DNA of 64,000 nucleotides from Thysanoteuthis rhombus (Eukaryota; Mollusca; Cephalopoda; Oegopsida; Thysanoteuthidae), in assembly GCA_963457665.1 (NCBI GenBank), contig OY735206.1, positions 26,983,710 to 27,047,709 on the forward strand. Reading direction: 5' to 3'. This document shows positions 3,150-56,620 of the stretch, piece by piece. Below the pieces are notes generated by a model. It did no database searches. It saw only the letters and a list, made by a program, of their open reading frames with translations, and had not been told where the DNA came from. Every line of letters begins with the position of its first letter. Position 1 is the stretch's first letter. Position numbers and translations under genes: made by a program.

Positions 3150-3484
3150 AAAATCGACAACACGTTCAGCGCACAGGAGTGAAAGATACCATGGAATCAA
3201 ATCGAGAACTCAAATTGCATGAGAATTTTGAACGACCGATGAACATCACAACTCACGACATGGATATCCAAAGATTATGTGCCAAACTGTGGCCGGTAAA
3301 ATATCAAATGACGTGACTAACTACACAAATTCAGAGTGTATTGGCTCTGCAATGCCCACGATAGAGAGGTATGACGAATGTTCGGGAAAATCTCTGATTG
3401 TCGACAAAGATATCCGACTAGCAACGATAAAAGGCAGATGATCACGATGATAATGCTGCTGCTGCTGATGATGATGATGATGTT
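3150..3484 (+). mobile_element. RTE-like LINE, extreme 3' remnant with trinucleotide tail
   Basis: The sequence from about 3150 matches the 3' end of the RTE-like family: a decayed C-terminal tail, then the conserved non-coding 3' part with ACTCACGACATGG and CCCACGATAGAGAGG. It ends in CTG/GAT trinucleotide repeats at about 3450-3484. The same 3' part occurs at 9130-9310, 13820-14030 and 56440-56600. No coding capacity remains. Confidence 0.78.
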
Positions 3485-8044: not shown

Positions 8045-9320
8045 GGAGCCCCGGAAGAATGAACACTGCGATGATAATACTGTTACTAATGGAAAAAAGG
8101 AACCTGGAAGACTTCAATAAGAGACTGAAAGTCATTAACTGCATTTACAAAATAACAGAAGATATCACCAACCAAATTTTCAAGAGCCTCGATTAAATCC
8201 AACCACGGGAGCAAGCTAGCTCTAGAAGAAATTACTCCACCATAGAAGATTTTCATTCGATGAATCAACTGAAAGAAAAAAGCAACAGAATACATAATGC
8301 AACTTGTCGTAGCATTTGTAGACTTCAAGAAAGCTTTCAACTCTTGAAATTCCAGAAGTCATATGAAGCTATAATTCTACAAGATGTCGATCTACTATAA
8401 GTCAGAGTACTGCAACATATATTCAGTTGCAGCAGGGTACATAAGGACTCAGAGCCTTTCCAGCTCCAAAAGAGGATAAGACAAGGTGATACCAGTTCAC
8501 TTTAACTCTTTACTGCCCACCTCGAGATTATCTCCGAAAATTAGACAGGGTAAATAAAGGAAACAGAATAGACAGTGAATAGCCAAGCAACCTCAGATTT
8601 AAAGACCTTTCCGTAGAGAGCCTATGCAATATCCAACAAATGCAAGATAAACTGAATGAAGAAAGCAAGAAATTTGGCTTTCGCATGAACTTCCACTAAA
8701 GAAAAAAGTCATGTGTAATAATTACATCTGAAATAAACACATTGGGGTCAAAATCGAAAACTCAGAACTTGAGAAAGGAAACAATATATCTACTTAAGGA
8801 AGCGCATATCCAAAAGGAGAAAAATCATACAAAGAATCACTGTAAGATGGCAAGCCTTCGGCAGAGCAAGCTCAACCTTCAAGAACAAGAAATTCATACA
8901 GTCCTGAAAAGAAGAGTCATCTACGAAGCTATAGCATGGAACTCAACCAACACATTGACTCTCAAACCGAGAACGATGCAACGCACACATGAAAAAAATC
9001 ATGCTCAACTTCAGGTGGAGAAATCCCAAGACAGCACGGTACATTAGAGAAAAACAAGTATCTGTGACATCATAGAATCCATTGGAGAATCTGAATGGCA
9101 ATGGGCTGATTATGTTGAAAAAAATTGCAAACAACCGATGATCATCACCACTCAAAACATGGATCTCCAGGGATCACATGCAAAACTGAAGCCGGTTCAG
9201 AAACAAGTTCAGAAAGTATTAGTTCCGCAACGCCCACGATGGAGAGATATGGCAAATCCTTGGGAAGTTTCATGTCTAATGACGGACTATGATAGACTGA
9301 TTGTGATGATGATGAAGCGG
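8045..9320 (+). mobile_element. RTE-like LINE remnant, RT palm through 3' tail (degenerate)
   Basis: Translating the plus strand piecewise gives decayed reverse-transcriptase blocks in the right order. They are an early block with 'VINCIYKITEDITNQIF' (about 8125-8195), 'STIEDFHSMNQL' and the Phe-Lys-Lys-Ala-Phe-like palm block (8240-8345), and a RIRQGDTSSL block corresponding to the RT motif around Arg-Gln-Gly-Asp (about 8470-8500). The C-terminal tail (8845-9130) and the conserved 3' non-coding part follow, ending in a short GATGATGATG tail near 9303-9313. Stop codons and frameshifts are frequent, so the copy cannot make a functional polymerase. The upstream endonuclease domain is missing, as expected from 5' truncation during target-primed insertion. 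Confidence 0.85.
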
Positions 9321-12894: not shown

Positions 12895-14035
12895 ATTAAT
12901 GTTTGAAAGAAACCCAGAAAACCTCAATAATTACTGACCAATAAGTCCAATCAACTGCATCAACAAACATTCCACCAAGGTAATCACCAACGGAATTACC
13001 AAAAAAACGTTTGACGAAAACCAACCATGGGAACAAGCTGGCTTTAGAAGAAGCTACTCGACCATGGGCCATTTCCATTCGATAAACTAACTAAAAGAAA
13101 CAGCATTAGAATAAAGAATGCTACTTGCAGTAACACTTACAGACTTCAAGAAGGCCTTTGACTCAGTTGAAAACCCCAAAGTCATTGATGCTATCACCTG
13201 ACAAGGAGTAGACACCGTATAGTCAGAGTATTACATTATATATACCGTTACAGCAGCGCTTTTATCAGGTTACATAAAAACTCAGAGCTCTTTTAGCACC
13301 AAAAAGACCAGCTCTTTCAAACTTTTTACAGCCAACCTTAGGATGATCTTTAGAAACGTAGACTTGTAAAACAAAGGAATAGTTAAGCAACCTCAGTTTT
13401 ATACACATTGTTCTTTTTGAAGGAAACTTCTACGACCTCGAACTAATACCAGATGAACTGGACAAAGAAAGTAAGAAAGCGTCCATGAAATCCTCAAAAG
13501 GAAAGGGAATCAAGTGGAGAATCACTTTATGAAGGCAAACCTTTGGTAGGCCAAGCTCAACATTGAAGAACGAGAAATTCCTATAGTTCTAAAAAGGGAC
13601 ACATACAACAAATGCATCTTCCCAATAGTCTACTGTAGAGCTAAAATATGGAATCTAACCAAGAGACTGACCTACAAACTAAGAATCATGCAACGTGCAC
13701 GTGAAAAAAATCGCGCTCAACATCACATAAAGGGCCCACAACACAGAACAGTATATTAGGAATCTGAGATATCATAGGGACCATTAAGAAAGTCAAATGG
13801 ATATAGGCTTGCCATGTTGCAAGGATGGGAGAAAACTGATGGATCACACCACATGGATCCCCTGAGATGAAATGTGGAACCGGAGCCGGCAGACAATGGG
13901 ATGGTGGGACTAACTGTACAGGATCAGAAAATGTTGGTTCAGCGAAGCACACGATAGAGTAATGTAGCGAATGCCTGGGATGGTCATTGTCCAATAACAG
14001 ACAATAAATGACTTACGATGCTACTGATGATGATG
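12895..14035 (+). mobile_element. RTE-like LINE remnant, RT palm through 3' tail (degenerate)
   Basis: Plus-strand translation shows the same ordered blocks as the copy at 8045: a Pro-Glu-Asn-Leu-Asn-Asn-Tyr-like start, a DFKKAFDS-type palm block near 13145-13170, then the C-terminal tail (13640-13830). The conserved 3' non-coding part follows, with CACACCACATGGATCCCC and GCACACGATAGAGTAATG. It ends in (GAT)n from about 14020. Many stop codons and indels make it inactive. A (GAT)n/(CAT)n junction follows directly. Confidence 0.85.
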
Positions 14036-16870: not shown

Positions 16871-18424
16871 CCATCAAATGAAACATGAATGAGTTGAACA
16901 ACCATAGCCATCGAATGTGGCGAAGAGTTCTATCTACTTTTATATATGCGTTTGCTTATGTGTATGCTTGTGTGTTTATGAGTGTCTGTCCTCTTGGCCA
17001 TTCAGTTTTGCCTCAGACTTGAAAATTAGGATCAGTACTCCACTAGACCCGTTCTAAACGAAAGGTTTTTAATTTGGGGGAAAAGAGCTTTTTAGACCTA
17101 GGGGAAATTGACGGGTTTATCACTAACGTCAGGGTTCTCTATAATCTTGATGTTTATTGTTTTTTGTTTTTTTTTACTCGATTTTAGATGTTTCCCACCG
17201 GAACACGTCACAAGTGTTTTCATTGGAATTCATTCTGACTGAATTTATTCTCCAACGGCATCTTTTTTTTACCTGACTCCAAATCTTGAAGTTAAGATTC
17301 AATTATTTACTGAGATTGCAATTATTTCTTATCTTTATGCGATGCAAAATTGAAGTGAATTTATAAAGATATCACCAATTGATTCACAGATTTATATTAT
17401 CAGAGTTGTTGGAGATAATTGAATCAAAATTCATTTATATCATTCAATACTACATCGGTTTATGCAATCAACCTTCACTAAAGTAAACTGGTGCTTTTAT
17501 GCTGGCTACGACATCAGCTGTCCCTAGCGAGGCTTTACATATCACGATTTTTCGGTCTCGGCTAATCGTTCGAGGCATCGAGGCTACTTGTTCGAGGCTT
17601 GAAGACAACGATACCCGTGATTGGGATCATATACTTCGACATACGCCATTTCACAAATAATTGAGGAGGGCAGGAGACGGATTCATACTTTTCTAAAGGG
17701 AATTAGTCTGGGTCCGAATTTGAAATGCACTCTTTCCATATTCCAAGTGATTCCCAACCATGTATACGCACATCTTGAAGAGATCTGTGCCCTTCTGACG
17801 TCCCATGACACGAATCGTTTGCAATTGCTTCATCGATTTATCTCCATAAGCAGAAGCTGCAGGATACATGTTGATATACACGTCAGTTTTTTTTAGTAGG
17901 AGTGACAGAATCTCACCATTCGTGTTCATCGACAAAGGAATTGTGGCCATTCTATTTACACTCAAGGAACAGGCTTGAAAGTCAGACCAGAAATGCACTA
18001 GTTATTTTCAGTTGTTTTAATCTTACAAGAGCAGTTTTCTCAACTTCATATCGAAATCAAAATCTAGAATTGCGACAAAAACATCTAGATTCCCCAAATA
18101 TATATGTAAATCTTAGATATGTTATCAATTGTCAATAAATTAAATGTAACTTATTGTTCAATGTTTATAATATTATTGTATTGTTTAATGATCAAGTACA
18201 TTACTTTTCTTTTTACACTAAATTGAATGAAAATATTTCTTATCGTATCAAAAGTTATCAAAATAGCAATTTGTCGCATTTGATTGCGGTGAAAGACGTG
18301 TAAATTGGCTATAGTAATCAAGGGACGTAACTTGGCAACATCTAAATTGGCAACACTCTACAAAAAACGTAAATAACACTTTGATACGTCTGTTAGTCAC
18401 GGCAATCGATGCTACCGCATTGAA
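16871..18424. other. Non-coding stretch, nothing recognised
   Basis: Only short unsupported frames, the longest about 100 codons on the minus strand at 17693-17998 with no motif. The word TTCGAGGC repeats near 17568-17598. Confidence 0.45.
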
Positions 18425-20075
18425 TAATGAAAGATACGTTACTTTTATAATGAAGGAAGAAATTTTACGTTAGTTCTTACTAAAAAAAGAAATGATACGT
18501 TACGTTTTGCTAAAAAATAAAATAATACGTTATATTTTGTAAAAGGAAGGAATTATACGTTACTTCTTACTAAAGGAAAAAATAATACGCTATTTTTCAC
18601 ATAAGAAAGAAATGAAACATATTTTTTTACAAAAAAAAAATGACGTGCTACTTTTACTAAAAAAAAGAAAGAACTTTCACCAATGAAAGAAATGATACCT
18701 TACTTTTCATCTGAGAATGAAATGATACTCAACTTTTTACTCAAGAGAAAAATGATACGTTACTTCTTATTTGAGAAAGAAATGATACCTTACTTTTTAC
18801 TTAAAAAAGAAACAATACGTTACTATTTACTAAAGAATGGAATGATATGCTACTTCTTACGAGAAGAAAGTAATGATACGTTACTTTTTACTAGAGAGAG
18901 AGAGATGATATTACTTTCCAGATGAAAGAGATAATGCATTACTTTTTCTAAGGAAAGAAATGTAGGTTACCTTCAATTCAAGAAAAAAATTATACGTTTC
19001 TTCCTACCACGGAAAGGAATAAAAAGTTACTTTTTATTGAATAGAGAAATGATGTTACTTTCTTACTGGGAAAATAGATGATACGTTAGTTTTTACACGA
19101 AAAAAGAATACGCCACTTTTTCCCAAAGGTAGGAATGATGCGTTTCTTCTCACTAAAAAGAATTATACGTTCTGTCTTACTCAAGAAAGAAATGATAATT
19201 ATTTTTTACTAAAAAGGGGAATGATACGTTACTTTCTGAAGAAAGAAATTGTCTGTTACTTTTTACTAAGTAGAGAATTGGTATGTTACTTTTTTACCAA
19301 GGGAAGAAATAATACCTTATATTTAACTAAAGAAAGAAATGATATGCTATTTTTCACCAAACATAGAGACGATATGTTACTTTTCACGAATGAAAGAAAT
19401 GATAAGTTATCGTTCATTATAGAGAGAAATAATTGTTTACTCCTTACAAAAGAATGAACGACACGTTATCACTTATTCAAGACAGAAATGATACGTTACC
19501 TATTACTAAACAACGGAATGATACGTCATGCTCTACTTAAGAAAGAAATGATAATTGATTTTTTCACTGAAGAGAGATATAATACGTTACTGTCTTCTAG
19601 CAAAAGAAATGATAGTTACTTTTTTTCGAAAGATAAATGATACAGTACCTTTTATTCAAGAGAAAAATGATACATTACTTTTTACTAAATGAAGAAATGA
19701 TACGTTTCTTTTTACTAAGTACAGAAATGATAGGTTAATCTTTAATAAATAAAAAAGGAATGACACATCACTTTTCTTTACTAAAGAAAGAAATGATACG
19801 TTACTTCTCACTAAAGAGAAAGATAATACGTAACTTATTATCCCCCCAAAATGATACGTAACTTCTTACCACAGAAAGAAATGATACCTTACTCTTCACT
19901 CAAGAAAGAGAATGATACATTACATTTTACTCAAGAAAGAAATGATCCCTTACTTTTCACTAACGAGAGAAATGGTGCATTACTTTTTACAGACTGAAAA
20001 AAAATACGTTACATTTTACTGAAAAAAGAAATGATACGTTGTTTTACACAAAAAAAGGACAAAAACGTATTTTCA
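18425..20075. repeat. 30-bp minisatellite, about 55 diverged copies
   Basis: A tandem array with a consensus unit close to AATGATACGTTACTTTTTAC followed by TAAAGAAAGA. Six consecutive units at 18689-18868 are exactly 30 bp; later units vary by a base or two. Individual units differ at many positions, so the array is old or was not recently homogenised. Because 30 is a multiple of three, frames of 60-80 codons repeating about ten residues appear in it. These are by-products, not genes. Confidence 0.95.
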
Positions 20076-26954: not shown

Positions 26955-26962
26955 TATATAAA
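26955..26962 (+). promoter_or_regulatory. Candidate TATA box of the giant ORF
   Basis: TATATAAA matches the TATAWAAR consensus and lies 179 bp before the ATG at 27141. A start site about 30 bp downstream would give a 5' leader of about 155 nt. AT-rich DNA yields chance TATA words, so this rests on position. Confidence 0.4.
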
Positions 26963-27050: not shown

Positions 27051-27071
27051 CGACCAACAATTACCTGAGAT

Positions 27072-27087
27072 CTCCTTCTCTTTGCAG
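27072..27087 (+). other. Candidate 3' splice site before the giant ORF
   Basis: A pyrimidine tract leads to TTTGCAG ending at 27087. The reading frame of the 27141 ORF stays open back to 27069 (the in-frame TGA is at 27066), so an exon starting at 27088 could add coding sequence before Met1 if an upstream exon exists. A possible donor (AGG then GTAAAA, near 26980-26986) would make an intron of about 105 bp removing the CGCTCA repeats. Transcript data are needed to choose. Confidence 0.4.
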
Positions 27088-27140
27088 ATATCCCTTACCT
27101 GGAGCTGTACGGTTCTCCATCGTTCCCGTTACACTTAAAC

Positions 27141-30100
27141 ATGCCTTATTTACCTTTTACCCACCTGATGGATCCGAATTTCTCGCCTGTTTTTCTTTCC
27201 TCTCCAAATAACGATCCGTCTCTCCTGATGGCGCTCTGTTTTCGATGCCTCTCAACGATGTCAATTTCCCTCTCTCTGTCGAGTCACATCCGCCTCAGCC
27301 TCTCTCTCACACTATACCGGATACCAGCGATCTCTTTCTCTCTCACTGTATTCAACATTTTTTCGATTTCTTTCTGCCGTTTGATACCACTCATGCCAAG
27401 AGAGCTTCAGTCAACAAGCACCTCAGAAACCGAAGATTTTTCTCTTCCTCTACTTAGCTTAAAGTCAAAGGATTCATGCCCTGAAATTTCCTTGGCCACT
27501 CCTAGCCAAATGAAGACCCTTCACTCTCGATCCGATACTACGACTGAAACACAACTGCCTTTTCTCTGTGACAATTTGTCCACTACTGCCTCAACACTAA
27601 AGCCTGTATATCCCTCGGGTGCATCGCTTCCATTGCCTACAACCAAAACAACGACACGTGCTCGGCATTTCCACAATCTTTCTACTCCAACTAAAAGCAC
27701 CACTTCAGCAACCACTTCACACATAGATAGTTCTTTTACTACCGCTTCAAAGCCACCCGTTGCTCCTTCCAGGAATCTCTTTCATTCTCCCCAAACCATA
27801 ACACCCCAAATCAATAAACTCAATGTTGAAAACCTAACTGCACCAACAGTTAATTCTACCTCGATTTCTCCTTTGCCTACTCTTTGCACTCCTAGCCAGT
27901 CGGTTTCAAACGATTTCATATCTCCCCAATCGTCCTCGCTTCAAAATTCATCATCTCTCGCAACCGTCACGCTCTCGGACGCTCCTCTTACTTGCAAAGC
28001 ATCCTCTACATTCTGCACCTGTGTCGACACAATACAACTTCCTGTTTTTTCGACGATAAAGGTATTACCTCATACGTCCCCTCCTTCTACTTCACCTTCT
28101 ACTGCTACTGCCAACATTACTTATAATAATACTTCTTCGACTCATCCATCTATTCCGGATTTGCCTAGCGTCGAGCCTCCTGTTTCTATTTCTTGTTATG
28201 TATCTCCATCGCCGCTGAGAATCATTCGTAAAAGCCACGAGGGTCATTCCCCTGATTTGCCTGGCTCCTCAGATACGGATTCTTATTCTACAAGTGGATA
28301 TCAGAAAACTTATAGCTCAGATTTTATGAAAATGTTCAAATCTCCTTCTGAATCATCTTCAGTTCCAACTCAAACTAGTACAGAACTTTCTATGAAACGC
28401 ATTAAATCTATCAATGAAAATCAAAATCCGCCTCACGCTAAAGAAGAACTTCCTATGAAACGAATTAAGTCTATTGGTAAGAATCAAAATCCTCCGAACT
28501 CTAATAAAGAATTTTCTATGAAACACACAACATTTGTAGGTAGAACTCGAATTCCTCTTCAATCCAATAAAGAACCTTCCATGAAACACACTAAATCCGT
28601 TAGTAAAACTCAAAATTCTCCTCACACAAATATTGAAATTCCTATGAAATACACTAAGTCAAATGGTAAAAATCTATGTCCACCTCACGTTAGTACAAGA
28701 CTTCCAAAGAAAAGTATTCCTAATGTTGAAAATCAAATTTCTCCTCCCAATTCTGTAAATACTACTGCTTGTTGTCACTCTCCTACTTTTTATCGGCATT
28801 CCTCGTCTAACTCCAAATCCACTAGTCTCCGAAATTCAATTAAAAAGAATTCAGTTCCATCTTTGACCAAACACCATACTGTTCCTACTTTTACTATTAC
28901 ATCTACCACTTCAAGTTACAATTCTCCAATCATGTGTCCATCTGAACACCACCAATCCAAACATCGAGATCGAAAATCCCCACTACTCTCTTGTTATGTC
29001 TCTACGCCAGAGTTATCTCTCCTCTCCTACTGTCGCTCTTTATTCAATTCTCTGAATGGCACAGTCTCTTCTCTTTCTCCTTTTTCTCTCTTTCATCATG
29101 CTTTGACACAATCTCCGAACTCTAATCACCACATTTCCCCCGATTCTGGTCTCGATGATCCAAACTCAAGTGATTTATCCAATTGTGGAGAAACTGCAAC
29201 TACTTCCAACCCAACCCTTGCAAGTACTAACGGATGGAAATCATTTTCATCCTCGGATGACAACAGCGACAGAGGTTTGAACGCCTTCCTACGGTTTCAA
29301 AAGAAAATGACTGCCCGTTCCAGTCCATCTCATTCAACGGAATCCCAAACTCCAAGATATTCTCCCACGTTGTCTTTAATTCGTGCAACTATCTCTGTAT
29401 CTTCTCTGTCCGTCTCTTCAGATTCCTTATCTTATTTTTCTCTGTCCTCCCCTCCCGTAGAGTCTCATGCTTCGTCTATATATTCATCTGCTCTTCCATC
29501 GGTTCAAACGCATTCTCCGTCCACTTCTTCGTCTTCTTCTTCTTTGTTGTCTCAAGGGGTTCAATCACTTAGAGGCCCATCAAAATCATCTGGAGCTTCA
29601 ACTTCTGAATGTCAGTCCCATAAAAGCACCAGTTCTCGCTTCGCTGCGAGAGTAGCGTCCCCGGCTGATCAAAAGAAATCACCGACCTTCTTTAAACCAA
29701 GTCAAAACGCTAGAAAAGTCCCTGCCAAAAACGCAGAGCACGCAACTGTTCGCACATCTCCGGCAGCAACTGCGACTGTTAGAGATCGTTATTCGCCATT
29801 GTCATCATCAGCCAGGAAAATATCTCGCTACAATAAAAACGTATCTGCATCTCCCAAACCTACCACTTCTATGATTTCCCTCGGTTCATCGCCTTCTTCT
29901 TCCACATTCTCATCCGTATCAGGCTCTTCGCTTTCTGTAACCACCGACTCGACTCTTGCTGTTTCGGTGAGTGTTTCCTCAATCGACACAGAATCAGAAA
30001 GCGACACTTCTCTTACAACTTCGACCACTTCCTTCCATGTATCTTCGGATTCTGCCAGTCAATATTTTTCTAGCTCTTCTTGTACTTTTAATAATCCGAA

Positions 30101-33100
30101 CCATCCTGAGAGTAAAAAGAAATCCCAAAATCAAGCTCCCGAAACGAATACTTTTCCCCTTTCTGAACCTTCTGTTTCTACCGAGTCAAATCCTTCAGCT
30201 TCGTCTACAATATCTTTTCCATCTACTTTATCTCCCAGCAGTCAAACGACAGAAACCATATCATCTTCATCTAATCGTAAACACGAATCCAACTCCTCCC
30301 AAAATGATACGTCTCACACATTTCGAGTTACTTGTAAACTGAAGTTTCCTCCTGAACTCTCGAATATTGTTCCCTCCTCTCCATCGTCTGAAGTGGACAC
30401 TTCCTCCGCTCGTACCAGTGATATCAACGCGGCTAGCACCGATTCTAATCCCCGTCCGGCCAAAACCTTTGTTTTCCCCTGTGATCCATGCAATTGTTCA
30501 GGGGTTTCTTCAACCCATTCATTGAAAACCCACTCGTCTTCTTCAACCGTCTATCCCCACTCCTCTTTCTCCTCAACCTCTTCCCACCCACCAGAAAGAC
30601 ATAACTCTGCCTTATCGCTAACAACAATTATATCAACCCACTCTTGCACACAACCAATGGTAACATCAGCTGTTACAGTAAAATCTACGACAAGTTTAAA
30701 GACTTCCTTTTCCAGCCCACACTTGGTGCCTTCTTCTTCTGATTCTTCCTTCCCAATGAAAACAAAGGTCACTTCTCGCGTCTCAGTACCGAATGTCTCT
30801 TCGCATGATACAGCTCCAACGACATCTTGTCCGTGTTCAAACGAAATTAAACTTGTTAACAAGGTCAGCGCTTCTACTTCTCAGTCAGGTCTGCATAAAA
30901 CACGCACAAGTGTCAGTTTGAATCAGTTACCTCCATGCTTGCGCGAAACTATTTTACATGCCTGTCACCCTCAACACATTCCAGCTTTTTCTCCCATTAC
31001 ATCTAACACAGTGACTTCCATTACTCCAACGACTGCGTCTTCTGTTAATCCAGCCACAGCTACTTCCACAACTCCGGTCACTGCTACCTCCAGTATTACA
31101 ACCACAACCACTTATACCATTACTCCAACCACAGCTACTTCCATTTCACCGGTCACTGCTACTTCAATTAGTCTCGTTAGTACAGCATCCATTACTTCAA
31201 CAAAAGCGTCTCCTATCATTCCATCCACTGTAAATTCCACTGCTCCGGTCATAGATACTTCTATGACTCCGGGCACTGCTACCTCCATTACTCCGGCAGT
31301 TGCACCCTCCAATAACCTGGCCAGTACGACTTCCATTACTCCGACAGCTGAGTCTTCTATTACTCCGGTTATTGTTAATTCCATTACTTCGGCTACTGCT
31401 AATTCTACCATTACTCCAGACGCTGCTAATACCACAATCCCCGTCACTACTACTTCCATTCTTCCGGCAACTGCTAATCCGACCATTACTTCAGTCACTG
31501 CAGATTCCACTAATCTGGCCACTGAAACTAGTAAAATAGTTGGTTCTCCTACAAGCAAAGCAATGGACCTTGACCATGTCGACCCTCCCATCCCGCACAC
31601 CTCTTCCTCATCTGTCTCTTCCTCTCAAGCTTCCTCATTCTTTTCCTCTTCTTCGATTCCCTCATCACTTCCTTCCTATTCTGCTTCTTCATCACCTATG
31701 GCCCCTTCAGCTTCCTCATCACTCCCTTTCTATTCATCTTCCCCATCCCTTCTTTCATCTTCGTCTTCCATCAGAGCTGACCCTGTGCAACCTCCCTCAC
31801 AACCAATCCCCACCACAAGACCCTCCCCCGGCCCACGTCCTTCAACTTTTGAAACTACCGTTTCGTTTAGCTCTCACGGAGCTGTCCCCTCTGTAGTGAT
31901 GCCTTCACAACCGGCTGTTAAATCAGCAGCTGCTTCCTCATCTCTCTCTTCAAGGACAATCAAATCAACTAATCTCCCTTTCACCCGAGCTATAACTTCC
32001 TACTCTTCCCCAATGGCCGCTGAAATGAGTTTGCCGCGCTCGGTTGTAACAACTTCCTCTCTACCAGCTGCAGTTACTTCCATTACTCCAGCCACAGCCA
32101 CATCCATTACTCCAGTCACTGCAACTCTTACGTCAGAGCCTCGACCATCTGTTTTCGATAATACTACACCGCATAGTGTCCAGATCTATTCCCAAATCCT
32201 CACTCCAATACTGCAACACATGCCTTCACTACTGTCCCTTGCTTACCCACCAGACGAAGATTTCTTTACAGACCTCGACTTTGCTGATACAATCATCCCT
32301 GTAGGACGAGACACTTCCTCAACGCCCGACGATAAACATACAGGCCCCTATTTGGCTGATAGGGTCTACCCTGCAAGAGAAGATACGTTCGTTGATCTCC
32401 CAAGTGTTTTAGCAAAACTCTCATACCAACGATGTACATATGCTGACTTGAGTTACGCCCCAGTACCCCATCCATCACAGCAATTTACCTACATAGACCT
32501 TAGTTATGTGGTAGCAGCACGTTCTTTACTACGACCAAACTACACAGACCTCATTCATTTTATAGCACCTCATATTTCACAACGATTCGGTTATATCGAC
32601 ATAAGTTACGTCCAAGCAACTCTACCTTTACAAGGACCCAGATACACGGATTTACTGTACATTCCAAGTCACCATCCTTCACAACACTTCTCTTATGTAG
32701 ACATGAGTTACGTTCAGGCAACCCGACCTTCCCGAGGGCCAAGATACACAGATTTATTTTATCTTCCTGGATACCCTCCATCACTAAATACTTATGTAGA
32801 TATGAACTACGTTCTAGCCACCCGACCTTTCCAAAGGCCCAGTTACACAGATTTATTTTATTATCCTGGATACCCGCCATCACTAAATACTTATGTAGAT
32901 ATGAACTACGTTCTGGCCACCCGACCTTCCCAAAGGCCCAGTTACACAGATTTATTTTATATTCCTGGATACCCTCCATCACAAAGCACTTATGTAGACA
33001 TAAACTACGTTCTGGCCACCCGACCTTCCCAAGGGCCCACATACTCAGATTTATTTTATGTTCCAGGATACCCTCCATCACAAAACACTTATGTAGATAT

Positions 33101-33866
33101 AAGCTATGTTCAGGCCACCCAACCTTCCCAAGGGCCCTGTTACTCAGATTTATTTTATATTCCTGGATACCCTCCATCACAAAACACTTATGTAGACATA
33201 AGCTATGTTCAGGCCACCCAACCTTCCCAAGGGCCCAGTTACACAGATTTATTTTATATTCCTGGATACCCTCCATCAAAGAGCAATTACGTAGACATAA
33301 GCTATGTTCAGGCCACCCGACCTTCCCAAGGGCCCAGTTACACAGATTTATTTTATGTTCCAGGATACCCTCCATCACAAAACACTTATGTAGACATAAG
33401 CTACGTTCAGGCTACCCGACCTTCCCAAGGGCCTGGATACACTGACTTATTTCATATTCCCAGACACGACCCATCGCTACACTTTTCGTATGTAGATATA
33501 GGTTATGTTTTAATCCTTGAACCTTGGGTCAACACAGACCTACGTTATACTCACCGAGCTCCTTCTGGGCGTCCTTATTTATCGGCTCCTTACGGAGGTG
33601 CAGACCCTACTTACTTAGTATCGTTCACCCTTGTTTTTCCCCTACCTTCTTTACAAGCAAGCATTTTGCCCCAACCAAATATCCACCCCCAACTGTATAT
33701 TTGCCCTTTCCCCTATCCACGAGTGATTTTAATTCCACTTTCTCCTGACACAGTCATTGAAGATGATTCCGATCCGTCGTTGTCCAACGTTTCTTCCAAC
33801 GTTTCTCCAGCCACGAACAGCCCCCTTCCTTTCCTGATGCCACAAATCACAGGAATAATCCATTAG
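27141..33866 (+). CDS. Giant Ser/Thr-rich, repeat-containing protein of unknown function (2241 aa)
   Basis: I do not recognise the family. The frame is open for 2241 codons with no stop, which is not credible by chance in this AT-rich DNA. The ATG at 27141 has A at -3; later starts at M10 and M85 are possible. Order by residue: hydrophobic stretch about 55-83 (possible signal anchor, or translated CT-rich leader); Ser/Thr/Pro-rich region to 414; six exact 21-residue basic units with a Met-Lys-(Arg/His/Tyr) core at 415-540; long Ser-rich stretch with a basic Ser-Pro segment near 834-910; Thr-rich repeats of about 8 residues (ITPxTATS type) at 1294-1460, with an echo near 1645; poly-Ser about 1487-1543; eleven 33/34-residue Tyr-rich units at 1768-2133. 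Cys is sparse and no enzyme domain is visible. The make-up fits either a mucin-like secreted or surface protein, or a disordered intracellular scaffold. An AATAAA follows the stop directly. Confidence 0.8.
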   Translation: MPYLPFTHLMDPNFSPVFLSSPNNDPSLLMALCFRCLSTMSISLSLSSHIRLSLSLTLYRIPAISFSLTVFNIFSISFCRLIPLMPRELQSTSTSETEDFSLPLLSLKSKDSCPEISLATPSQMKTLHSRSDTTTETQLPFLCDNLSTTASTLKPVYPSGASLPLPTTKTTTRARHFHNLSTPTKSTTSATTSHIDSSFTTASKPPVAPSRNLFHSPQTITPQINKLNVENLTAPTVNSTSISPLPTLCTPSQSVSNDFISPQSSSLQNSSSLATVTLSDAPLTCKASSTFCTCVDTIQLPVFSTIKVLPHTSPPSTSPSTATANITYNNTSSTHPSIPDLPSVEPPVSISCYVSPSPLRIIRKSHEGHSPDLPGSSDTDSYSTSGYQKTYSSDFMKMFKSPSESSSVPTQTSTELSMKRIKSINENQNPPHAKEELPMKRIKSIGKNQNPPNSNKEFSMKHTTFVGRTRIPLQSNKEPSMKHTKSVSKTQNSPHTNIEIPMKYTKSNGKNLCPPHVSTRLPKKSIPNVENQISPPNSVNTTACCHSPTFYRHSSSNSKSTSLRNSIKKNSVPSLTKHHTVPTFTITSTTSSYNSPIMCPSEHHQSKHRDRKSPLLSCYVSTPELSLLSYCRSLFNSLNGTVSSLSPFSLFHHALTQSPNSNHHISPDSGLDDPNSSDLSNCGETATTSNPTLASTNGWKSFSSSDDNSDRGLNAFLRFQKKMTARSSPSHSTESQTPRYSPTLSLIRATISVSSLSVSSDSLSYFSLSSPPVESHASSIYSSALPSVQTHSPSTSSSSSSLLSQGVQSLRGPSKSSGASTSECQSHKSTSSRFAARVASPADQKKSPTFFKPSQNARKVPAKNAEHATVRTSPAATATVRDRYSPLSSSARKISRYNKNVSASPKPTTSMISLGSSPSSSTFSSVSGSSLSVTTDSTLAVSVSVSSIDTESESDTSLTTSTTSFHVSSDSASQYFSSSSCTFNNPNHPESKKKSQNQAPETNTFPLSEPSVSTESNPSASSTISFPSTLSPSSQTTETISSSSNRKHESNSSQNDTSHTFRVTCKLKFPPELSNIVPSSPSSEVDTSSARTSDINAASTDSNPRPAKTFVFPCDPCNCSGVSSTHSLKTHSSSSTVYPHSSFSSTSSHPPERHNSALSLTTIISTHSCTQPMVTSAVTVKSTTSLKTSFSSPHLVPSSSDSSFPMKTKVTSRVSVPNVSSHDTAPTTSCPCSNEIKLVNKVSASTSQSGLHKTRTSVSLNQLPPCLRETILHACHPQHIPAFSPITSNTVTSITPTTASSVNPATATSTTPVTATSSITTTTTYTITPTTATSISPVTATSISLVSTASITSTKASPIIPSTVNSTAPVIDTSMTPGTATSITPAVAPSNNLASTTSITPTAESSITPVIVNSITSATANSTITPDAANTTIPVTTTSILPATANPTITSVTADSTNLATETSKIVGSPTSKAMDLDHVDPPIPHTSSSSVSSSQASSFFSSSSIPSSLPSYSASSSPMAPSASSSLPFYSSSPSLLSSSSSIRADPVQPPSQPIPTTRPSPGPRPSTFETTVSFSSHGAVPSVVMPSQPAVKSAAASSSLSSRTIKSTNLPFTRAITSYSSPMAAEMSLPRSVVTTSSLPAAVTSITPATATSITPVTATLTSEPRPSVFDNTTPHSVQIYSQILTPILQHMPSLLSLAYPPDEDFFTDLDFADTIIPVGRDTSSTPDDKHTGPYLADRVYPAREDTFVDLPSVLAKLSYQRCTYADLSYAPVPHPSQQFTYIDLSYVVAARSLLRPNYTDLIHFIAPHISQRFGYIDISYVQATLPLQGPRYTDLLYIPSHHPSQHFSYVDMSYVQATRPSRGPRYTDLFYLPGYPPSLNTYVDMNYVLATRPFQRPSYTDLFYYPGYPPSLNTYVDMNYVLATRPSQRPSYTDLFYIPGYPPSQSTYVDINYVLATRPSQGPTYSDLFYVPGYPPSQNTYVDISYVQATQPSQGPCYSDLFYIPGYPPSQNTYVDISYVQATQPSQGPSYTDLFYIPGYPPSKSNYVDISYVQATRPSQGPSYTDLFYVPGYPPSQNTYVDISYVQATRPSQGPGYTDLFHIPRHDPSLHFSYVDIGYVLILEPWVNTDLRYTHRAPSGRPYLSAPYGGADPTYLVSFTLVFPLPSLQASILPQPNIHPQLYICPFPYPRVILIPLSPDTVIEDDSDPSLSNVSSNVSPATNSPLPFLMPQITGIIH
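28383..28760 (+). repeat. 63-bp coding tandem repeat (6 units, 21 aa each)
   Basis: Units start at 28383, 28446, 28509, 28572, 28635 and 28698, each exactly 63 bp apart. The core is Glu-(Leu/Phe/Pro)-(Ser/Pro)-Met-Lys-(Arg/His) ... Lys-Ser ... Asn-Gln-Asn-(Pro/Ser)-Pro. The last unit is the most diverged and has lost the Met. All units keep frame despite base differences, which supports a translated protein. Confidence 0.92.
31020..31520 (+). repeat. Thr/Ser-rich coding repeat, about 24 bp (8 aa)
   Basis: Degenerate units of the type ITPVTATS run in one frame through residues 1294-1460, with a short second patch at about 32075-32135. Mucin PTS domains look like this (dense Thr/Ser with Pro), which would make it a target for O-glycosylation if the protein is secreted. 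Confidence 0.8.
32442..33540 (+). repeat. 99/102-bp coding tandem repeat (11 units, Tyr-rich)
   Basis: Unit starts (the codon after the first Tyr) are at 32442, 32544, 32646, 32748, 32847, 32946, 33045, 33144, 33243, 33342 and 33441. The first three are 102 bp and the rest exactly 99 bp. Each unit has two halves, YTDLFYIPGYPPSQNT and YVDISYVQATRPSQGPS, sharing Tyr-x-Asp-(Leu/Ile/Met)-x-Tyr and Pro-Ser-Gln. Central units are near-identical in DNA, so recently homogenised. Outer units differ in DNA but keep the Tyr-x-Asp core. Degenerate half-units continue on both sides (from about 32388, and to about 33550). Confidence 0.95.
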
Positions 33867-33867
33867 A

Positions 33868-33873
33868 AATAAA
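33868..33873 (+). terminator. Candidate polyadenylation signal
   Basis: AATAAA begins one base after the TAG (33864-33866) of the giant ORF. If used, the 3' UTR would be only about 20-40 nt. No second AATAAA was seen in the next few hundred bases. Confidence 0.4.
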
Positions 33874-41199: not shown

Positions 41200-41720
41200 G
41201 AAAAGCACTGCGTGGACACACAGGGATCAATCGTTGTGATGTCCTACAGATGCCTGATATTCTTACTACATGACCAGCGTATTGTCATTCGATTTCTCTA
41301 ATGGATTCTATGAAATCCCTGGACTCTGTTTTTCTTGATATACTCTGTGGCCTTCCGATTTCATGTGATATTGAGCATGATTCCATCTTGTGCACGTTGT
41401 AGGGTTCTCAGTTTGATGGACAATCTTTTGATTACGTTCTATGTTTCAGCCTTATCGGTCAATATCGGAGATGCATCGATTGTATACCCATCCATTCAGA
41501 ACTAATAGGATTTGCTTGTTCTTCAAGGTTGAGCTTGCCCTTCCGGAAACATTCCATCCTAGAGTGATTCTTTGCTTGATTTCTTCTTTTAAGGATTTCA
41601 TGGAAATTCGTTGTCCGAGGTAGATGCCATGGTGTACTTTTTTCGGCTTTGTGTTTTCTACATCGCTGTCTTTGTTTTCAACGTGTTTGAGATTGGAATA
41701 TTCCAGTTTTGCATTTTTTT
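41200..41720 (-). mobile_element. RTE-like LINE, C-terminal and 3' remnant
   Basis: The plus strand carries the reverse complement of the family tail in the same order as 53820-54260: a decayed GGGATCAATCGTTGTGATG, then ACATGACCAGCG, GGTTCTCAGTTTGATGG, GGTTGAGCTTGCCCTTC and TTTCATGGAAATTCGTTG. Read on the minus strand these are the YLG-type thumb block, the tail after it and the 3' end. Stops and indels are present, and no trinucleotide tail is visible. Confidence 0.78.
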
Positions 41721-49712: not shown

Positions 49713-50454
49713 AACTGTGCACGTTGCAGAATAGCGAAATTTGATATGCTTAGTACTTCATATTTTGCTACAAATCTTTTTCTTCGTGTAATTCAATTGT
49801 AGTCTGAGTGGAAAATGGCAAAACTTGCTTGAGTTTAGCGTTCATGTGGGCGTATGATGATATGTTAGATTACTGATTGATATGATTATCTACTTTTAAA
49901 AATCGCATTTTACTTTCGAGCAAGGCCACAGAAGTTGAAAAAATATCAGTTGAAAAATTTGTACCTTGAAACAAATGCTGGTATCAAAGGATCTTGAGAA
50001 CTCCTTCGACCCCAGTTAAAAAAAAATGTTACGACTACATCTATTCGTGTTCCAAAATTTGCATTAAACTACGAAACATTTCACACTTCAAAACGGTGGC
50101 ATTTTATCATGTTACTAAGCAAACATGGACTTTTCTATCAAAGATTTTGTCACTTTTTGAAATACTGAAATGTTCAGTTTTTTTCCTCTTCCATGAATTC
50201 TCTAAATCCTTTATATGGGGATAAATTTCACATCCGTGTACACCTGGTGTGAAGAATGCCTCATGGATAAAGAAAAATGACAAAAAAAAACTTGAAAGGA
50301 AAATAGAACATTTCAAAATTTGAAAAAGACGATGGAATGTCAAAATGAAATTTTTGTTGTTGTTGCTGCAGCTGCTGCTGTTGTCATTGTACTTGCTGCC
50401 TTGTTCTAGCTGAGTTTTCCACTTGTCATACCTGGTTGCTTTCACTATCATCAG
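49313..50454. other. Non-coding stretch, nothing recognised
   Basis: Contains the GA tract at 49658-49709 and a TTG/CTG trinucleotide patch at about 50353-50385. The 132-codon minus frame at 50107-50505 runs through it and into the LINE remnant; no motif of its own. Confidence 0.5.
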
Positions 50455-50952
50455 TATCAGCCTTTTAGCGTCTGTCGTTCGATAAAGACCTTCCCCAAGA
50501 TTCACCAGACATCTCTATCGTGAGCGTAACGGAGTCAGTACTTTCTGAAGTAATCTACCTTATCATGCAATCTTATATTTTGTCAGCCCCGGTTTCACAT
50601 GTGATCTCTGGGGATCCATGTTGTGAGTTGTGACATTCTTGCAATATTAGTAGACCAGTACCATTAAGTTTTCTTACAAACTCTATGATATCTTGTACTC
50701 CTGTCTTTCCTGTAATATATTGAGCTGTCCAGTGATCTCTCCACGTGAGAATGATTCTGTCTTGTGCATGGTGTATGATTTTCAATTTAAAGTTCAGTCT
50801 TTTGGTTGACTATCAGGGATGTGCATTGGTTGCAAACTTTTCTCTTTAGAAATAGTCGGGTATTCTCATTCTTGCAGGTTGTGCTTCCTCTACCGAAAGC
50901 TAACCAACCTAGTATGATTATACGCTCGATTTCTCCTTATCTTAAGGATTTC

Positions 50953-53599: not shown

Positions 53600-54620
53600 T
53601 CAATCTGGCTTGATAGTGTGAGCTCAAGTCACACCAAGGGTTTACTCTTTATTTCCGACTATGCTGTCTTTCAACATCCGTCATTGTACATGGATCTTTA
53701 CCAGGATTCGCCACACTTCTCTATCGTGGGGGTCACGGAGCCAGCATTTTTTCTGAATTTGTCTGGCTCGTCCCTTCATTTAATACTCTGCCGGCCTCGG
53801 TTGCGCATGTGATCTCTGGGGATCCATGTCGTGAGTTGTGATGTCAATCAGTTTTCTGCCAGTCTTGCAACATGGCCAGCCCACTGCCATTTGAGGTTTT
53901 TATTGGATTCTGTGATGTCCCTGACTCCAGTCTTCTTCTGGATGTACTGTGCTGTCTCTCAATGGGAGTTCCAGCATGATTCTTTCATTTGCATGTTGCA
54001 TGGTTCTCAATTTGCGGATTAGTTTCTTGGTTAGGTTCCATGTTTCACTTCCATAAGTGACAATTGGGAGGATGCATTGGTTGTACACAATTCTGTTAAG
54101 ATTAATGGGATCTTCTTATTTTTGGATATTGAGCTTGTTCTTCGAAAGGCTTGCCATCCGAGCGATATTGCTTGATTTCTTCTTCTTTTGAGGGTCTCAT
54201 GGAGATTTGTTTTCCTAGGTAGATGTAGTGATCTACTTTCTCCATTTCTGTGTCATCAATTTTGATCTTAGTGTTTTTATCTCCCATGTGGTTGATGCCG
54301 ATGATCTTGCTGATGTTCATGTGAGGGCTGACTTTCTTGCTCTGTTCATTTAGTTCATCTAGCATTAGTTGAAAGCCGTGTGCGTTCTCAGCAAAAAAAG
54401 GCGATGTCGTCTGCAAATTTGAGGTTGCTCAGATATTTGCCGTCTATTCTCATTCCTGTACTCTCCCAGTCTAGTCTTCTAAAGATCATCTCTACGCAGG
54501 CTGCGAAAAGTTTTGGTGCGCTGATATCACCTTGTCTTACCCCTTTCTGAAACTGAAAGGAGTTCAAGTCTTTATGTATAGTCAGAGTCAAAGTTGTGAT
54601 AAAAAAAGCAGCCAAAAACT
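53600..54620 (-). mobile_element. RTE-like LINE, best-preserved copy (RT palm to 3' end)
   Basis: On the minus strand 54615-54388 translates to the reverse-transcriptase palm with FQKGVRQGD, then a Leu-Phe-Ala-Ala-Cys block, the LDWESTGMRIDGKYL block and FADD. Phe-Ala-Asp-Asp is the polymerase active-site variant used by RTE elements. A change in a T run near 54394-54400 shifts the frame. The protein resumes through the thumb block with YLGKQISMRPSKEEE (54416-54102) and the tail with LPIVTYGSETWNLTKKL (54088-53900). Everything upstream, including the endonuclease and the first palm motifs, is absent, as in 5'-truncated insertions. Inactive, but the best reference for the other fragments. Confidence 0.92.
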
Positions 54621-55014
54621 TGGAGGGGTAATGAGAACATTGAAATTAAAAATAAATCTCAAACTGCTCTATCTTATTACTGCAAGGCTGACATAAGCTG
54701 CTGAAATGAAATGGAAGAATGACTAGTAAACTATCTACTCAGATAATGAACTGAGTGATTTTCTTGGTTTGCGGTCTGTAACAATTCAACTCAGCGATAT
54801 ATATGTTTACTTCCTACTCATCATTTCAAACTATTGGCCCATTAGTTGAAACATATCTATTATTCTTTTTTCTTTCTGAAAAAGAAATTTTCAGGGTAAT
54901 TCAAATGTACCCGAGAATTTTTTTCACAACAATCAAATAGCCATACATGCAAATTTCATCTCTGTTTGCGTATTGATCTCATTGGTTAATTTGCCTGCCT
55001 ATAATGACTTAACA
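54621..55014. other. Non-coding spacer
   Basis: Nothing recognised between two minus-strand LINE fragments. Confidence 0.5.
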
Positions 55015-55500
55015 ATGAAGGATCATCATTATCATCATCATCCTCAGCAACAGAATCTTCCTTGCCACTGTCGTTGGACTTTGACCTTCCTCAAGATTCA
55101 CAAGACCTCTCTATCATGGACATTACTCAACCAGTACTTTCTGAATTTATCTAGATCGTGAAGTCATCTTACTTTCCGTTGGGCATAGTTTAGCGTATGA
55201 TTTTCAGGGATCTTCGATGTAAATCGCGATGTCCAGTGGTTGTTTGACATTCTTGCAACATGTCCAGCCCGTTGTCATTTGAGTTTCCTAACAGTTTCTA
55301 TGATGCCTCGAACTCCTGTCTTTTTCTCGGACAGTGCTGTCTCACGGTCTTTCCATGTGAGATCAAGCCTGATTATTTCATGTGCATATTGCATGATTCT
55401 AAGTTTGAGGGTCAACCTTTTGGTTAGGTTCCATGTTCCAGCTCCATAGGTGACTATCGGTAAGATACATTGGTTGTTCACGCTTCCTTCAAGACTTCAT
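55015..55500 (-). mobile_element. RTE-like LINE 3' remnant with (CAT)n tail
   Basis: Starts on the plus strand with ATCATCATTATCATCATCAT, the reverse complement of the family's GAT tail. The 3' non-coding part, then the C-terminal tail follow; 55481-55275 minus reads ILPIVTYGAGTWNLTKRL, matching 54088-53900. 5'-truncated at about 55500. Confidence 0.88.
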
Positions 55501-56134
55501 GTCCAATCATCTTTTAAATCAGCTTGAGATGAGTAGACACTTAGAAAAAAATTAAAATTAGAATACTTGAATCATTAAAAACGAATCATCAAATATCATA
55601 GCTTTGGGCCCCTTAGGGCTGACCAACGCATAAATAGCCTAGTCATTTTACTTATTAGCAATTGACAATGCTTCATAAAAAATCGAATACTATTACATCT
55701 TTTGACCTATGCCACTGTTTATCTCCACAACATGAAACCGTTAACACTTCTCAATACTTATCGTTCCTTCCAGCTGGCTCACATTTCTCTCGCCAATACT
55801 ATCATCATCATCATCTCTGTCTTTTTTTTATTTATGTTAACTTATATTATTTGCCATTCATAGCAAGAACCGTCAATTACAAATGCAAAATTTGGTTAAT
55901 TTCTCTCCAATTCCAGCTGCGTTGCTCGAAATTTTAAATGTTAAATAGTGAAGTTTATTTGTTCAAAATTTATCTTTACTGTTCAAAACGTCACGGTTGA
56001 AGACATTATCATAATTTAATATGCTTTTTTTTTATTCTCCTTAATCACATCAATATGTACAGCAATCAATTAACCATGTATCATCTAATCTGCATTAATC
56101 TGCACTATTCAGGCTGATTTAAAGCCCACTTATC
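55501..56134. other. Non-coding spacer
   Basis: A CATCATCATCATC patch lies near 55802-55814. No gene seen. Confidence 0.5.
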
Positions 56135-56620
56135 TAGGATGGCAAGCCTTCGGCAGAGCAAGCTCAACAAGAAGAACCCATTAAAACTTATAAGAATTGT
56201 GTACAACCAGTACATCCTCCCAGCTGTCACATATGGAGCTTTAACATGAAACATAACCAAGGGACAGACCTGCAAACTGAGAAACATGCAACGAGCACAT
56301 GGGACAACCATGCTCAACCTCACATGGAGAGATCACAAGACAACACAGTATATCAGAGAGAAAACAGGAGTCCGGGATATCATAGAATCCAATAGAAAAC
56401 TCATATGGCAATGGGCTGGTCATATTGAAAGAATGGCAGACAACTGATGGACATTATGAATCACAACATAGATCCCCCATCAAATGCGTAACCGAGGCCG
56501 GCATAATACAAGATGGAGAGACGAACTACACAAGGTCAGAAGGTACTGGCTCTATAACGCCCAAGAGGTGTGGCAGATCCTGGAGAAGGTGATCAGCAGT
56601 CGTATCTTTTATTGACTGAG
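56135..56620 (+). mobile_element. RTE-like LINE C-terminal and 3' remnant
   Basis: Plus-strand sequence from GGCAAGCCTTCGGCAGAGCA (shared with 8849) through the tail block reading in pieces like YNQYILPAVTYGA, then the Trp-Arg-Asp-His-Lys-Thr-Thr block, and the 3' non-coding part with GCCCAAGAGGTGTGGCAGATC. The trinucleotide tail is missing. Several in-frame stops. Confidence 0.88.

Follow-up and report, generated by a model that had tools for sequence, protein, structure and literature searches.

Lineage-restricted repeat proteins of this sort are already a known kind, and mucin-like and silk- or suckerin-like repeat proteins are often lineage-restricted. MAP1B-type giant exons carry imperfect short tyrosine-containing repeats, and Xin repeats are 16 residues long and lie in one exon. 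The substrate domain of p130Cas/BCAR1 has 15 YxxP motifs in 306 residues (PMC3983058), and the simple repeats of nebulin are 35-40-residue modules with the motif SDxxYK (PMC7109182).

The locus compared here with these systems lies in a 64-kb stretch of DNA from Thysanoteuthis rhombus, which was analysed at its full length and is referred to as the window. An open reading frame of 2241 codons extends on the forward strand from an ATG at position 27141 to position 33866, exactly at the coordinates and with the length of the original prediction, and its frame is stop-free upstream as far as 27069. We consider it very likely that this ORF is a genuine protein-coding exon of very large size, whose product belongs to no recognised family. 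The features of the locus are collected in Table 1.

Table 1. Features of the giant ORF and its immediate flanks (window positions).
Feature	Positions	Strand	Basis or description
TATA-box-like TATATAAA, putative	26955..26962	+	sole TATAWAWR match on the strand, 25.5-27.4 kb
3' splice-site-like pyrimidine tract ending CAG, putative	27072..27087	+	sequence pattern; just 5' of the ORF
Doubtful 5' part of the ORF, candidate 5' UTR or portion of another exon	27141..27392	+	negative positional scores
Best-supported coding part	27393..33866	+	ATG 27393 to TAG, ~2157 codons; positive frame scores, non-array stop counts
63-bp array	28386..28763	+	six diverged in-frame 21-aa units, Lys-rich, [PS]MKxxKS-like
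~24-bp repeats, two stretches (30994-31170, 31355-31478)	30994..31478	+	~8-residue units, Thr/Ser/Pro/Ala-rich, TSITPxTA-like
27-bp repeats	31660..31769	+	tandem finder
17-residue repeat array	32388..33539	+	23 contiguous 16-17-residue units, core Y-x-D-[LIM]-x-Y, residues 1750-2133
99-bp array as first detected	32591..33460	+	tandem finder
AATAAA, candidate poly(A) signal	33868..33873	+	directly 3' of the stop codon

Within 27069-33866 the main frame contains its terminal stop only, whereas the other two forward frames contain 83 and 112 stops. About 70 stops per 2241 codons are predicted from the positional base composition, and the longest open runs in simulated sequences were 292, 569 and 366 codons (Markov orders 1, 2 and 4; 200 sequences per order). 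From 27393 on, the four parts outside the arrays (1524 codons) hold 0, 44 and 82 stops in frames 0, 1 and 2, respectively. Translation is therefore well supported, and we regard it as almost certain that the ORF is translated. The selection for translation proposed originally thus stands, the argument being carried by these non-repeat parts and by the Asp column of the 17-residue repeat, but the proof offered for it, that all array periods are divisible by three, does not. Such periods are weak evidence of translation because a stop-free 99-bp unit stays open however often it is copied, and because frame-specific constraint was not found in the 63-bp array (pN/pS 0.66 in frame versus 0.61 and 0.93 off frame, six units). 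Indeed, two more frames, one forward (32504-33445) and one reverse (32560-33411), run open through most of the 99-bp array.

From about 27396 onward the main frame is the one favoured by both codon and positional scores. Positional scoring gives it -11.9 bits over 27211-27300 and -8.6 bits over 27301-27395, and all frames are non-positive there. The models behind these scores took 27600-33863 of this very ORF as training data, which makes scores beyond 27600 circular; 27396-27600 is the independent part of the positive signal, and the 5' segments lie outside the training range. Although the predicted ORF starting at 27141 is exact, its first ~84 codons are thus doubtful, with the composition against the frame over 27211-27395, and ATG 27393, the first ATG with coding support behind it, is the safer start. 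In the region 27210-27456 another forward frame is protein-like over ~80 codons where the main frame loses its coding signal. A frameshift reading of 27210-27395 is disfavoured: the alternative frame has positional scores of -0.6 and -2.8 bits, and its codon score is positive (+1.1) in a single 135-nt window at 27216, the neighbouring windows being negative. We prefer to regard 27210-27395 as non-coding rather than frameshifted; 27210-27456 may be 5' UTR or record an old change of frame, and exons upstream of 27393 are possible.

The putative splice-like tract and the TATA-like TATATAAA are opposed hints that would correspond to alternative readings of the gene start, and the ORF may represent either a single-exon gene or a giant last exon. 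The first ATG downstream of TATATAAA at 26955 is 27141. The octamer occurs eight times on this strand of the window, and the pattern of 11 pyrimidines, one base and YAG occurs four times. At the other end, AATAAA has a background of 1.2 per kb of strand, and the signal after the stop codon is weak taken alone.

The 2241-residue product contains 20.1% Ser, 11.8% Thr and 10.9% Pro, with Ser and Thr reaching 48% per 150 residues. This composition suggests that the protein is mostly disordered, in line with the large disordered protein envisaged in the original prediction; the TOP-IDP disorder composition scale is above zero in 15 of 15 segments, which is weak evidence. The mucin-like character envisaged as well found no specific support: N-x-S/T sites are close to expectation (24 versus ~27 estimated from composition), Cys amounts to 1.4%, and by hydropathy neither ATG 27141 nor ATG 27393 is followed by a hydrophobic, signal-peptide-like start. 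Two hydrophobic stretches inside the first 80 residues (residues 28-46 and 61-79; KD 1.70 and 1.71) would fit a membrane protein, if the doubtful 5' part is translated.

That the protein belongs to no known family was borne out by searches of Pfam, NCBIfam, PHROGs, PDB sequences and a large protein set. Pfam gave no family for the whole ORF at E≤1, and no match was obtained with NCBIfam or PDB sequences at E≤1, or with PHROGs at E≤0.1. When four pieces (27393-30989 and 32388-33863, each halved, with 30990-32387 left out) were rescanned against Pfam at E≤10, four matches were returned, all under their cut-offs (best E 0.89). In the large protein set, relatives were absent for residues 1850-2241 at E≤10 (3369 candidates), for residues 85-760 at E≤1 (7980 scored) and for residues 85-2241 at E≤0.001 (7956 scored). 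Residues 1708-2241, the part compared with viral and prokaryote genome contigs, gave 3 and 16 pattern-matching stretches, respectively, of which none was confirmed, and a tblastn search with the protein found nothing elsewhere in the window at E≤1. The orphan status refers to the collections searched, which may hold few or no mollusc proteins. A mobile-element polyprotein, a match to which had been named as grounds for refutation, is not indicated: for domains such as RT, integrase, protease or transposase Pfam gave nothing at E≤1 and only sub-cut-off matches in the four pieces, the window's dispersed repeats all lie outside the ORF, and its 51 self-matches (at least 70 bp, E≤1e-6) include none that pairs the ORF with a site elsewhere.

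The three in-frame tandem arrays predicted (63, ~24 and 99 bp) are all present, together with the 27-bp repeats. For the 63-bp array the tandem finder gave 28382-28688, and the sixth unit was added by manual extension. The 99-bp unit is an amplified dimer of an older 17-residue unit: within residues 1750-2133 units follow each other at a spacing of 16 or 17 residues. Those at the outside have diverged, and those inside have been amplified as 33-mers. Conservation is concentrated in the core, with Tyr in column 1 (22/23), Asp in column 3 (23/23), Leu, Ile or Met in column 4 (23/23) and Tyr in column 6 (20/23), and most columns outside the core drift. The motif Y-x-D-[LIM] was observed 22 times in the array; shuffling the array 2000 times gave 0.46 on average and never more than 4. 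The 384 residues comprise 51 Tyr, 50 Pro and 40 Ser, the stretches between the tyrosine motifs being Pro/Ser-rich, and charged residues are 2 Lys, 16 Arg, 25 Asp and 1 Glu.

The Asp column of the 17-residue repeat is under constraint. The invariant Asp uses both of its codons (GAT 13, GAC 10), and the changes inferred for this column, counted on a single neighbour-joining tree of the same units, are six synonymous and no non-synonymous (P=2.1e-5; 3.6e-4 after correction for 17 columns). Columns 1 (P=0.027) and 6 (P=0.052) are both non-significant after correction, column 4 lacks a synonymous excess (P=0.67), and the non-core column 16 has P=0.016. For core versus other columns pN/pS is 0.21 versus 0.82 in all 23 units and 0.25 versus 0.88 in the 9 outer units; the core columns were picked from the same data as tested, and the motif used for finding units fixes D and [LIMV]. 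The outer limits of the array were set by the motif and are hence biased, and within residues 1750-2133 every register was included. In the 33-residue register the values (0.79 in frame, 0.91 and 1.04 off frame, 10/11 anchored units) are unreliable because 34-residue outer units are cut ungapped at 33 and slip by one residue; the 17-residue analyses used a register with a gap.

By analogy, the product may be a disordered scaffold with a multivalent docking array, a reading that we favour tentatively. The large coding exon, perhaps the whole gene, would encode a mostly disordered Ser/Thr/Pro-rich protein of ~2150-2240 residues, in which the 23-unit C-terminal array would display short tyrosine-based motifs in a multivalent manner. 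The array could bind many copies of one partner domain or bundle the protein with itself, and the disordered body would serve as a phosphorylatable spacer. The docking reading derives from the analogy with the p130Cas substrate domain. p130Cas/BCAR1 (PMC3983058) and this product both have a Pro-rich region with repeated tyrosine motifs (disordered in p130Cas, presumed so here) and a Ser-rich region, but the motif is YxxP there and Y-x-D-[LIM] here, and the units here are clear tandem duplicates. The N-terminal SH3 and other Cas domains were not found in this ORF (Pfam, no family at E≤1). Compared by description, MAP1B-type giant exons are likewise very large and disordered with short tyrosine-containing repeats towards the C terminus, but KKE-type blocks were not seen here and no Pfam family matched. 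ITAMs are defined by Y-x-x-[LI] pairs 6-8 residues apart; the array was rejected as an ITAM, with no pair at this spacing and five if 6-12 is allowed.

Nearly as likely as the docking scaffold is a structural material, and it is quite possible that the protein is a secreted or extracellular structural or adhesive one, in which the Tyr/Pro-rich 17-residue units self-assemble by beta strands and tyrosine cross-links and the Ser/Thr body is glycosylated in a mucin-like manner. The 51 Tyr and 50 Pro of the array and the local Ser/Thr content of up to 48% would agree with such a protein. AF2 without an alignment (C-terminal 534 residues; mean pLDDT 51.5, pTM 0.61) also placed a 10-14-residue strand in the majority of the 33-residue units, with 10-residue block means of up to 81. 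This pattern was not given for every array of the protein, residues 1285-1500 with the 24-bp arrays (30993-31640) showing no confident structure (pLDDT 37.2, pTM 0.26), although this is a single control with more diverged repeats. On the other hand, the N terminus lacks signal-peptide-like hydropathy, N-x-S/T sites are not in excess, the Lys-rich 21-residue units look cytoplasmic or nuclear to us, and a PDB fold search with the C-terminal model returned 19 matches at E≤10 and none at E≤0.001. The AF2 models are uninformative. A Ser/Thr/Pro-rich low-complexity body and tandem arrays are shared with mucin-like, silk-like or suckerin-like proteins. In contrast to these, neither an export signal nor a Pfam domain was seen, and the 17-residue unit bears no apparent resemblance to silk or suckerin units.

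A nebulin- or Xin-like role, in which each D-x-x-Y unit contacts one cytoskeletal filament subunit, is unlikely. The 16-17-residue pitch is regular and the array holds 20 D-x-x-Y, eight of them as [ST]-D-x-x-Y, so that tandem units with a D-x-x-Y core recall the SDxxYK of nebulin (PMC7109182), whose modules are 35-40 residues long, against 16-17 here. The array is almost Lys-free, and its charge composition (2 Lys against 25 Asp) speaks against filament binding. Membership of the nebulin repeat family was rejected, with neither SDxxYK nor D-x-x-Y-K anywhere in the protein and no nebulin family listed by Pfam for the array at E≤10, a search whose filters drop most matches above ~0.1. That the open frame arose as a side effect of a C-rich, repeat-expanded strand and yields no functional protein is highly improbable: the strong strand asymmetry (GC skew down to -0.47), the two extra frames that run through most of the 99-bp array without a stop, the 63-bp array without frame-specific constraint and the empty homologue searches of protein collections would suit it, but the 1524 non-array codons hold no stops where the other two frames of this strand have 44 and 82, simulated open runs reach 569 codons at most, and the Asp column has changed synonymously only.

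Returning to the docking scaffold, a more specific and rather doubtful version is that it is a lineage-specific giant protein whose 23-fold array is a new docking repeat, its copy number tuned by expansion of the 33-residue dimer and its motif held by selection. The 17-residue unit matched nothing in the collections searched, and the age layers of the array, with diverged, older 17-mers flanking younger dimers of 33 residues, would show which residues selection holds. If expressed, the gene would contribute a giant orphan to the repeat proteins, one whose motif array matches no Pfam family; without expression or relatives it stands as a well-supported gene.

The region had been called AT-rich, but the ORF region itself has a GC content of 0.40-0.45 and is less AT-rich than nearly all of its flanks. 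The description as gene-poor was checked by one Pfam scan that took in 10 of the remaining 132 stop-to-stop ORFs with 70 or more codons. No tRNA was found in the window by ARAGORN, and Rfam gave no matches there at gathering scores. A 112-codon ORF at 43131-43466 matches DUF7626 below threshold (E=0.0047; 17.1 bits against a cut-off of 27). Positions 54105-54428 on the reverse strand, without a Pfam match, resemble a decayed non-LTR reverse transcriptase. Diverged dispersed-repeat copies (~64-76% identical, in both orientations) lie at 1822-2227, 3235-3388, 8096-9316, 12906-14015, 41233-41640, 50441-50807 and 53666-56590. Microsatellites are present in the flanks of the ORF, and a 1.6-kb minisatellite at 18423-20058 consists of ~45 copies of a ~30-bp unit, ~65% alike, with one frame open for 134 codons.
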